Below, piece after piece: positions 22,466 through 32,172 of a stretch of DNA of 64,000 nucleotides. The stretch is taken from assembly GCF_026151205.1 (NCBI RefSeq), contig NC_087072.1:8418084-8482083 (forward strand). Direction: 5' to 3'. Position 1 is the stretch's first letter. Every line of letters begins with the position of its first letter. The notes under the pieces were generated by a model, which was not told the DNA's origin, did no database searches, and saw only the letters and a program-made list of their open reading frames with translations. This DNA comes from Bolinopsis microptera (lineage: Eukaryota > Ctenophora > Tentaculata > Lobata > Bolinopsidae). The position numbers and the translations under genes are program-made.

Positions 22466-25400
22466 TTAAATACTAACCACACTTGTGCAGGGTGTATCCT
22501 GAACAGTAGAGGTAGTACTCAGGTCCGGAATGAACTTGTTAGACAGGATGAATGGGAGGGGTCCAATGTTAGCTGACAGTGTGCTCTGAAAGGAAAACAT
22601 ATATAATCATTTCGTTTGAGCACTGTTTTCATATTGTAACATCAATTTTTCCGATTTAATTTCGAGTATTCAAAATAATTATTATTGTTTGCGGATGAGT
22701 AGAAGATAACTTACTTGGAGTTGGCTCATCTGAAGAGAGAAGGGTTGTCCGATGTTGAAGGACAGCGGGGATTTTTCCTGGACATGATGAGTCCTCATGT
22801 GCTCCTTCAGAGGCATGGCCTGAGTGTAGCTCTTACCACAGATCTGACAGACGAAGGGACGCTCGCCAGTGTGGAGGCGGCGATGCACCACCAACGAGGA
22901 CGGCTGGGTAAAACACTTTCCACAATGTTCACACTTATACGGCTTCTCTCCTAAATGATTAATTGAAAATTATGCACAATAATCCAGTAATTCTTTTAAG
23001 AGGGTTCCTACTCCACGCTTCACAGGTTGGAGCAAATAAACCTAGGTCACTGATTTTCCCTTCAAATTATCTCACTTCTCAACGCTCCAAATTATAATCA
23101 TGATATTTTGTGGTATCTGTCAAAGATACGTCATATCTTACCAGTGTGGATGCGGATGTGATGCTGGAGAGATGCTGGCTGGGTAAATCTCTTGTTACAA
23201 TACTTGCAAACGTAGGGTCGCTCCCCAGTATGGGATCTCATGTGGCATCGTAGACTCGCACTTTGGGTAAATCTCTTTCCACACTGAGGAAGTCGAATAT
23301 TTGGTCAATAATGTTGGTTTTTATTTGGTTAATTTTATTTGGTTAATGTTAGGCGCCACTGACCCAAAATAGTTCAGCCTACTCACGGTTAAATTTAGTT
23401 TTCATCATTTGTCCGACAGTTCGAACTTAAATCAGTGTATGAGTATCAATTTTATGGCTTTGATTTAGGGCCAATAAAAATAATTAAGGAAAACGGAATC
23501 AAGAAAAATGTGTTCCTTTCAATGTTCAATGTTTTAAACTCAGTTACATAGCAGATCATAAACGAAAATATCTTATTTGAGGGTGATTTGGTTTAGAACG
23601 CTGCTAAATTTTAAATTTCGTGAACTAATTATTCCAAAAAAACGTACTACATATTTATCTAAACACCTAAACGTGTTTGACTATTCTGTTGCAAAATTTA
23701 GGAAGTGCAATTAATTACACCAGATATTTCAGGAATTAGTAGTGTTATGAAGTCACTAACAGGGTTTAAACCAAATTTAACAGAACAAAACAGAAACTGA
23801 ACCATTTTGGTTTCGTCTTGTCGTCATTTCAATTTCAGCATCCTCAAATTTTGTTCAGATAACAGTCATTGTTTTTTTTCAAAAATCTTGGTGACAATAA
23901 CCAATATAATGTTTGTGAATGATAAGGTTCCAAACTAACCAATTGACATCGGTAGGGTTTCTCTCCGGTATGTAGGCGTTCGTGGCACTTCAGATTAGAG
24001 ATCTGAGTAAAAGCTTTGTCGCAGTAGTGACAATGGTAGGGCTTTTCTCCTGGAGTGAAAAAGCAAGGTCACGTTTAAAATCGGGTGACGGAAGTCACTC
24101 TCTGGTTGAGTAACAAAACGGCAATATTCTTGCAACACGTGCGGCTACTGTTTGGCTTGTACGGTACGAGCAACCCTCACGTAACTAACAAACAATATCA
24201 GCGGTGGAAAATAAGACATATAGTTTTAGTGCTTTCTTTTGTTATCCAGCAAGCACCCCGAGCATACCTTGAATATGTTCCACAATGCCCAGTGCTTGTC
24301 TAATAGGTGAAAGATCTGCTGATACCGCAAGCCAGGCACAGAATATAGACACTATTGTTAGAGACAGACGCTCTTTTTACTTCAATAAGACCGATGACAT
24401 GCACACTTTTATTGTATAAATTGATGAAAATATTTCAAAAAACGTGATCCACTAATGGTGTTTTACCGGTGTGGGTGCGCTCGTGGACCTGCAGAGCACT
24501 CTGCTGGGTAAACCTCCGCCCACAATACCGACAGGGAAATCTGCAAGATAATAGATTACAAATAATAATATGCTAATATGGTAATTATTAGTAAGAAGAG
24601 AATGTTTAATCATAAAGTGAAAATGAGCCCCCCCGAAATTCCGTAGTCCGGAATATCATGTCCTTGCTGCCTGGGTGCAAGGCACAACAACCAAAATTTA
24701 GTTTAACATTCCATCATCATTTTAACATTCCTTTAACATTGATCTTTACCCAAAATAACCTAAACCCGACACAATAATAATATAAGAACTGTAAAAATCG
24801 ACATGGTTTAAACTAGTGGGATTCTTTTTTAAAACGTATATTTCGTCGCAGAAAGAAATTATGTAGCCGCAGTTTAACTGATAACCCTAGATAGCTTTAT
24901 CCCGGAGGTAGATAATATGAGTCTATAAATTCAGAAATTTTCATAATGATGATGACATTTCTTACTAATTTTGTGGTTGAAGGAGTACCTGAACTTTTTT
25001 CTTTGTTGTCCAAATTAACCGGGACAGTAATTATTTGTACCCGGGGAGGCAAGGAAATTAAGATTGGTTAAAATAAGTAATAACTTCCGTGCGGTTGGTG
25101 TTGTCATCACAGTACGTAAAGCTCGTATTAGCGACCGAAATCAAAACCTTGAGTAAAGTTTTCACCTCTAATTATCTTATGAACTTGGAAGTAATTTTTT
25201 CCATGTTTTAAGAAATGATTTTAGTTCTCAAAATCTCAATGTTATCAATTTGATTAACTTATAATAAAATTTATAAATGAGTGGATTATTTGCACGGGCA
25301 CAGATTACCAGATTAAGGTATTAATTTAATAGTAATAGAATTAGATTTGCGTAATTTTTATAACTCATAACGGTTCGGTGATTTCCCGTCCACAAATTCA

Positions 25401-31400: not shown

Positions 31401-32172
31401 CTGTTTATCCGCCGCACTCAGCACTGATACGATTTAGCCTGCCTTCAGCTACCCTTACAACACCTATTATGTTTTCCTATATTAGATCCGAGAATCATCT
31501 CCCGACCAATAGAGGCAGATGATTAAGCCACGGAGTAACCCACAGCCTATCAGGACAGGGAATGTGGTCAGGTGACTAAGCTAGACCAGTTGGGGTTGTC
31601 CTAACAAATAGAAGCGTGACGGGGGCTGACCAACGGGAAACTTGCTAGTTTTCCTATATTAAATCTTTAAAGTTAGAGTCCATGGAATAAAGGACATAGA
31701 AAACAAACTAACTAAATAGTATTCAAATGAGAAAGGGGCAAACAAAATAGGATATGTGTCATATACCAGCCATTTAATCGTATTAATTTGTAAAAGTTAG
31801 CCCCTTCTGGTGCGAGAGGAGCTGTTTGCAACAATAGCAAGTCATGCGTTAATCCATCAGTCACGCTTCAAAGCATGAATGGAGAATATATGATTCACGG
31901 TCGGACTGTGGAACGAGTTTTACAGCTGAAATTAGAAACAAACTCCAGTATGGTTAGATTCGTCTGATGTCCGGTGTAGGGATTTGTTTTCTTCATGATT
32001 CATGATGTGTCTCGTCCGTTAAATGATTAAAACAATTGAGCACGCATCAAGCAACAAAATACTCGTTATTCGTCACAATAAAATTAGAAGTAATTAGAAG
32101 TACTGACCTGCAGATTAGTTGGTAGAGGAAATTCTGATCCGTCTCGTTGGGTAAAATCTCAGACACTGACAT
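22466..32172 (-). CDS. CstF-50-like N-terminus fused to six C2H2 zinc fingers, 12 exons
   Basis: Predicted exons in transcript order: 32172-32108, 29470-29425, 29162-29051, 27880-27781, 27488-27236, 26966-26817, 26667-26483, 24540-24467, 24049-23940, 23283-23142, 22950-22715, 22585-22466. All phases agree and give 530 residues. Residues about 15-60 ([15 protein letters not shown] and following) resemble the N-terminal dimerisation domain of cleavage stimulation factor subunit 1, but none of its WD40 repeats is present. Residues about 108-192 are acidic and then Q-rich ([16 protein letters not shown]). Residues about 305-467 hold six C2H2 fingers with HTGEKP-type linkers, each carrying FTQ or YTQ before the helix, so a nuclear DNA-binding role is likely. 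The last exon is a short S/T/P-rich tail. The start is the first ATG after an acceptor (TTTTTTCTAG), so the 5' UTR is spliced. Alternative: exons 1-3 or 1-4 belong to another transcript. The fingers are certain; the fusion is inference from phase. Confidence 0.65.
25825..25921. repeat. Tandem duplication of about 54 bp
   Basis: Two copies of a segment containing TTGTTTAACGTAATTAATT and TTAGGCCA.TTTGT, in an intron of the zinc-finger gene. Confidence 0.85.
29746..29833. repeat. 22-bp tandem repeat, four copies
   Basis: Four near-identical units containing TTATCGTGGGAGTGTATCAG, bounded on both sides by AGATATTGTGA. It lies in an intron of the zinc-finger gene. Confidence 0.95.
31464..31668. 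repeat. GC-richer insert bounded by 17-bp direct repeats
   Basis: GTTTTCCTATATTAGATC at about 31470 and GTTTTCCTATATTAAATC at about 31650 differ by one base. The roughly 160 bp between them is richer in G and C than its surroundings. This could be a retroposon with target-site duplications, but no poly(A) tail or clear pol III boxes are seen. It lies in the first intron of the zinc-finger gene. Confidence 0.4.

Follow-up and report, generated by a model that had tools for sequence, protein, structure and literature searches.

A gene family of the ctenophore Bolinopsis microptera that probably uses a CstF-50-type domain as a pairing module ahead of DNA-binding domains

A stretch of 64,000 bp from the genome of the ctenophore Bolinopsis microptera, referred to here as the window (C1:8418084-8482083 of genome G000, which comprises 264.65 Mb in 232 contigs), carries on its minus strand a gene of 12 exons whose predicted protein begins with a CstF-50-type domain and continues through a flexible, acidic, glutamine-rich linker into six C2H2 zinc fingers and a short tail. 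Counting this gene, we find the domain at 13 loci besides CSTF1 itself, the last of them (L022) weak. In CstF-50, this domain reportedly forms a homodimer (Moreno-Morcillo et al. 2011). Because it stands at the extreme N terminus before different DNA-binding domains, without WD40 repeats where these were examined, we favor its reuse as a pairing module: the CstF-50 homodimerization domain was probably co-opted in this ctenophore lineage by a family of transcription factors to which the window gene belongs.

Every intron of the window gene, which runs from 32172 to 22466, has GT-AG boundaries, all phases are consistent, and the joined exons form an open frame of 530 residues followed by a stop codon (Table 1). 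The 12 phase-matched exons proposed in an initial annotation of this DNA are thus borne out in their positions, splice sites, and reading frame. Translation may also start in exon 4 or exon 5. With hmmscan, the first 74 residues score 37.7 bits for the Pfam family CSTF1_dimer (PF16699), whose cut-off is 26.6, which agrees with the CstF-50-type N terminus recognized in that annotation; in the whole protein, the match covers residues 15-63 at 32.9 bits. The same scan places zf-C2H2 at six stretches (106.5 bits), as the annotation had also read, and TGEKP-type linkers are visible in the translation. Glutamine occupies helix position -1 in all six fingers, and in the recognition code of such fingers, glutamine at this position favors A. 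The absence of WD40 repeats after the domain was likewise correctly seen, with zero Pfam matches to WD40 in the 530-residue protein at an expectation value (E) of up to 1 and none in the open frames scanned from other members.

The relationship to CstF-50 also shows with a profile built from nine family members, CSTF1 being left out. Of the 177,635 distinct sequences in the PDB, this profile picks out only two at E up to 1, both of them CstF-50 N termini (32pv at 4.3e-9 and 2xz2 at 1.3e-6). It also scores the CSTF1 of this genome at 25.4 bits, and 1,000 shuffled versions of the first 90 CSTF1 residues reach 8.2 at most. The first 74 residues of the window gene by themselves match the CSTF1 N terminus 32pv at E 0.0075, which is weak alone. 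Judging from these profile matches, the window-gene domain is homologous to the CstF-50 domain, beyond a resemblance of motifs.

The strongest domain match in the genome, at 49.7 bits, is CSTF1 on contig C5. The initial annotation had proposed looking for a separate full-length CSTF1, and this is such a gene: a single open frame of 437 residues, 430 from the methionine, in which Pfam scores the dimer domain at 45.6 bits and WD40 repeats at 131.4 bits. Since a separate CSTF1 with WD40 is present, the window gene is not a broken CSTF1. We also reject the idea that exons 1-3 begin the CSTF1 gene, because that gene is complete on C5 in one open frame. The coding region of CSTF1 has no introns, in contrast to most of the fused family; one possible reason is that a retrocopy replaced the ancestral gene.

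A genome-wide search with the first 74 residues revealed a second copy of the domain, L005, 7.5 kb before the window start and on the opposite strand, so that it and the window gene lie tail to tail, ≈27 kb apart. In our seven-exon model of L005, one exon encodes the whole domain; after an intron of ≈140 bp come a long linker exon in the same frame, the same six fingers, and a stop codon. The domains of the two genes are identical at 38 of 71 residues (54%), and the fingers with the start of the tail at 168 of 180 aligned residues. A mis-join would hardly yield one and the same arrangement in two genes this far apart, and we reject a mis-joining of neighboring genes; L005 is the best evidence against it, and two further loci, L009 and L007, also speak against it. 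Together with the Pfam match and the separate CSTF1, this paralog supports the fusion architecture that the initial annotation had described.

At the level of DNA, the domain exons of the window gene and L005 share 138 of 239 aligned columns. In exon 10 (23142-23283 in the window and L005:4012-4153), 141 of 142 nucleotides are identical, although the 40-nucleotide intron stretches that flank it appear unrelated past their first 9 nucleotides. Such near-identical finger exons fit gene conversion confined to these exons, or an unusual constraint on exon DNA. We reject the idea that the finger array is part of a large family, because among 150 scored of 1,754 candidates, matches beyond the window gene and L005 have an identity of at most 55%.

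The 13 loci are spread over eight contigs (the window gene and L005 on C1; L006, L009, and L010 in a run on C4; L007 and L011 on C9; L008 on C12; L012 and L020 on C7; L013 on C2; L014 on C14; and the weak L022 on C6). Downstream of the domain and on the same strand, seven have C2H2 fingers, one has a forkhead domain, one has a possible homeodomain, and at four none was found. For four of the 13, our models run from the domain into a DNA-binding domain in one frame: the window gene, L005, L009 (783 residues, with ten C2H2 fingers by pattern), and L007 (≈593 residues, with a glutamine-rich linker and then a forkhead domain at 116 bits in Pfam, the linker-forkhead splice being one of three that fit). 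Same-strand C2H2 fingers also lie downstream, outside complete gene models, at L014, L008/L018, L020, and L012/L031, and a homeodomain (L016, 45 bits) follows the L010 domain by ≈10 kb on the same strand. The fingers of L020 and L031 fall under the Pfam cut-offs, yet they are closely alike, as are the domain exons of L020 and L012. Across 16 family pieces, a C2H2 pattern gives 19 same-strand matches (10 of them from L009, and one of the two at L020 looking spurious) versus 0 on the opposite strand; a 64-kb control sequence gives one match, both strands together.

The three loci on C4 are consecutive and on one strand, and their downstream parts differ (ankyrin, ten C2H2 fingers, and a possible homeodomain). 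L013 shares 53% identity in its domain with L007, the forkhead gene; no forkhead domain was found near L013 in the stretches examined, the only such match on chromosome 2 being distant, at 14.06 Mb. By eye, a common linker motif also seems to be present in these two genes (DKLQSLSSSGD and DQLNSLSASGI).

The domain is also recognizable by a shared gene structure. The exon starting at QLxxDG begins within a serine codon, at a phase-2 intron, in 10 of the 13 loci (the window gene, L006, L007, L008, L009, L010, L012, L013, L020, and L022), two of which, L020 and L022, were found by a pattern that requires AG at that site. A short exon 1 ending in LYxLI[IVC]-S or a near variant was located upstream by pattern at L006, L007, L008 (weak), L009, L010, L012, L013, and L020. 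Where the exit phase of the domain was determined, with donors picked by eye, it is phase 1 in eight of eight genes (the window gene, L005, L006, L007, L009, L010, L012, and L013); L008 is ambiguous, and L011, L014, L020, and L022 are outside the count. At L006, L007, L009, and L013, the next long frame begins at a phase-1 acceptor behind a pyrimidine tract, chosen by eye from several acceptors. The strict exon 1 signature, which was written after the family exons had been seen, has 0 matches in eight 8-kb control pieces at hand-picked round coordinates and 0 in the window outside the gene on both strands; a looser pattern has one match in the control pieces and one in the window outside the gene.

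A pattern for exon 2 has 17 matches in the genome versus 10 for a reversed-pattern control. Nine of the 17 are known loci, one (L020) is new, and among the seven others, L022 reaches 18.5 bits with the family profile and the other six at most 7.1. L022 has a second-half exon 1.2 kb farther on (13.3 bits); exon 1 was not found within 4 kb upstream, nor C2H2 fingers on either strand across ≈10 kb downstream. On these scores, we regard L022 as a probable family member.

Comparisons between domains show purifying selection. Exon 2 of L012 and of L020 agree at 22 of 24 amino acids and at 53 of 72 nucleotides, and the domains of L009 and L006 at 34 of 51 residues; between such pairs, synonymous sites have reached saturation but the protein is kept.

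Overall, 10 of the 13 loci exceed the Pfam cut-off as a spliced domain or as an exon, L006 barely so as an exon (26.7 bits, and 28.4 in the genome search). Several observations weigh against reading these loci as one family of paired transcription factors. L005 scores 18.0 bits, under the cut-off, though its domain shares 54% identity with the window-gene domain; the 24-residue exon of L020 (17.8 bits) and L022 (16 bits) are also under it. The exon 1s were located by a pattern modeled on the family, which makes the spliced-domain scores only partly independent, and L005, L011, and L014 lack the common serine-codon intron. At L008, L010, L012, L014, and L020, the link from domain to DNA-binding domain is one of strand and distance (≈5 to 16 kb). 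At L006, L011, L013, and L022, no DNA-binding domain was found in the stretches examined, and L006 has ankyrin repeats downstream instead.

With these points taken into account, co-option of the CstF-50 domain as a pairing module remains the reading we consider probable. The domain would pair two protein chains, either with itself or with a family partner, and the paired chains would let two DNA-binding modules act jointly, cooperatively on one element or by bridging two. We infer expression, dimerization, DNA binding, and pairing between family members from sequence.

The domain might instead pair with CstF-50 itself and tie the zinc-finger protein to mRNA 3'-end processing, with CstF being recruited or titrated by factors bound to DNA; we give this arrangement a small chance. 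The domain is truly related to the CstF-50 dimer domain, and SQLxxDG, the family motif, is retained in the CstF-50 structures solved from other animals, which makes such pairing chemically possible. The CSTF1 of this genome, however, is distant by the profile score given above and has GQLRSDK at the place of SQLxxDG, so a shared pairing surface is less likely here. WD40 was matched neither in the window gene nor in those open frames that were scanned from other members, and the variety of DNA-binding domains fits general dimerization. The initial annotation had offered both a link to 3'-end processing and a reuse for dimerization; the latter fits better, given the lack of WD40 matches and the unrelated DNA-binding partners (C2H2 and forkhead), and the former loses ground.

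We consider it unlikely that the domain lacks a dimerizing function and persists as a structural relic or as a generic helical tail. In favor of this, the domain has modest identity with the CstF-50 domains of known structure, but seven positions are invariant in the alignment of the nine family members, the domain pairs keep their protein at saturated synonymous sites, and the module is retained at the extreme N terminus ahead of unrelated partners. That exons 1-3 and 4-12 are two genes in phase by chance, one encoding a domain-only protein and the other a zinc-finger protein whose translation begins at the exon 4 ATG (27860), is very improbable: this ATG has a reasonable context and is preceded in frame by only six whole codons of exon 4, so the exon 3-4 junction alone proves little, but L005 has both parts with ≈140 bp from its domain exon to the long in-frame linker exon, in L009 and L007 as well, one frame runs from the domain into a DNA-binding domain, and the exit phase is the same in all eight genes determined.

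The window holds further features beside the gene (Table 1). The tandem array (periods 18/27/45, AAGCTAACTAAGGTAACT) starts right at the stop codon of the last exon and has a long open frame on each strand, and a second repeat, in the first intron, consists of four perfect copies. Scans of the window for transfer RNA and Rfam families gave no match. Elsewhere in the genome, a ligand-binding piece of a glutamate receptor has as its best PDB match ML032222a (119 bits), a receptor of the ctenophore Mnemiopsis leidyi, followed by 4zdm (86 bits) and by NMDA receptor subunits (63.5 bits).

Table 1. Exons of the window gene, related loci, and other features. Plain positions are those of the window; positions with a contig prefix are those of the genome.
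Feature	Position	Strand	Content	Basis
Exon 1	32108-32172	-	ATG and first part of CstF-50-type domain; phase 2 exit within serine codon	Similar exon 1 at eight other family loci, one weak
Exon 2	29425-29470	-	Middle of CSTF1_dimer domain	Exon model, Pfam, and PDB match
Exon 3	29051-29162	-	Second half of domain; phase 1 exit	Exon model and Pfam
Exon 4	27781-27880	-	Acidic, Ser/Thr linker; ATG at 27860, possible alternative start	Exon model
Exon 5	27236-27488	-	Linker with VKTE motif and glutamine-rich stretch	Exon model
Exon 6	26817-26966	-	Linker	Exon model
Exon 7	26483-26667	-	Ser/Thr/Pro-rich linker	Exon model
Exon 8	24467-24540	-	Finger 1	Exon model and Pfam; 48/74 nucleotides identical to L005
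Exon 9	23940-24049	-	Finger 2 and beginning of finger 3	Exon model and Pfam; 102/110 nucleotides identical to L005
Exon 10	23142-23283	-	Remainder of finger 3 and finger 4	Exon model and Pfam; 141/142 nucleotides identical to L005
Exon 11	22715-22950	-	Fingers 5 and 6 and tail stretch	Exon model and Pfam; 210/243 aligned columns identical to L005
Exon 12	22466-22585	-	C-terminal tail, TAA stop	Exon model
L005	C1:8410545-8413462	+	Outside window; domain, linker, and six fingers	Seven-exon model
CSTF1 (L001)	C5:16539973-16543155		Dimer domain and WD40	Pfam
L006, L009, L010	C4:12485000-12521000		Run of three family loci	
L022, L043	C6:11937200-11947700		Probable further domain locus	Two exons, 18.5 and 13.3 bits
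Tandem array	22036-22466		430 bp	
22-bp repeat	29746-29834		In first intron of gene	
Det1 relative	55356-56744	+	Neighboring gene	Pfam, 92.4 bits
Sfi1 spindle-body relative	61611-63998	+	Neighboring gene	Pfam, 36.2 bits
254-residue open frame	4908-5669	-	Resembles part of a long interspersed nuclear element (LINE)-type reverse transcriptase	Judged by eye; unmatched in Pfam at E 0.001

Zinc-finger proteins specific to ctenophores have been described before. CTEP1 and CTEP2, which are zf-C2H2 proteins, occur at chromatin-loop anchors in Mnemiopsis leidyi and bind a GC-rich motif with two CpG, their DNA-binding domains having been cloned for DNA affinity purification sequencing (DAP-seq; Kim et al. 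2025, PMC12221973). By term search, the main text of that article contains CSTF 0 times and "dimer" once, of nucleosomes. Compared by description only, the window gene resembles the CTEPs as a ctenophore C2H2 protein, and a dimerizing domain would suit tethering. The glutamine at position -1 in all six fingers, which would favor A, does not suggest a GC-rich site like that of the CTEPs and may speak against the window gene being one of them. It is conceivable, if doubtful, that ctenophores built a regulator class on the CstF-50 domain in which some members, perhaps the published loop-anchor proteins, use the domain to tether chromatin-loop sites. If so, the family would supply candidates for tethering at ctenophore chromatin loops, the published proteins having no pairing domain described in the main text (PMC12221973).

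By titles and abstract openings, we found no description in the open-access papers searched of CSTF1_dimer joined to DNA-binding domains. The window gene shares with CSTF1/CstF-50 the N-terminal CSTF1_dimer domain (PF16699), through which the family profile finds the solved structures, and differs in having a linker and C2H2 fingers and no WD40 match. In their arrangement, parallels are the interaction domains of other zinc-finger families, ZAD in insects, SCAN and KRAB in vertebrates, and BTB/POZ in animals: in each, as here, an N-terminal interaction domain expanded in a lineage precedes C2H2 arrays. If the pairing role is correct, the Bolinopsis family would be a new case beside ZAD, SCAN, and BTB of such an expansion and would offer candidate regulators whose pairing may depend on one domain of ≈70 residues. 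It would differ from all of these in that its pairing domain derives from an RNA 3'-end processing factor, which would thus have supplied a transcription-factor pairing module in an early-branching animal lineage, and in having the domain ahead of a forkhead domain (L007) as well, and perhaps of a homeodomain (L010/L016).

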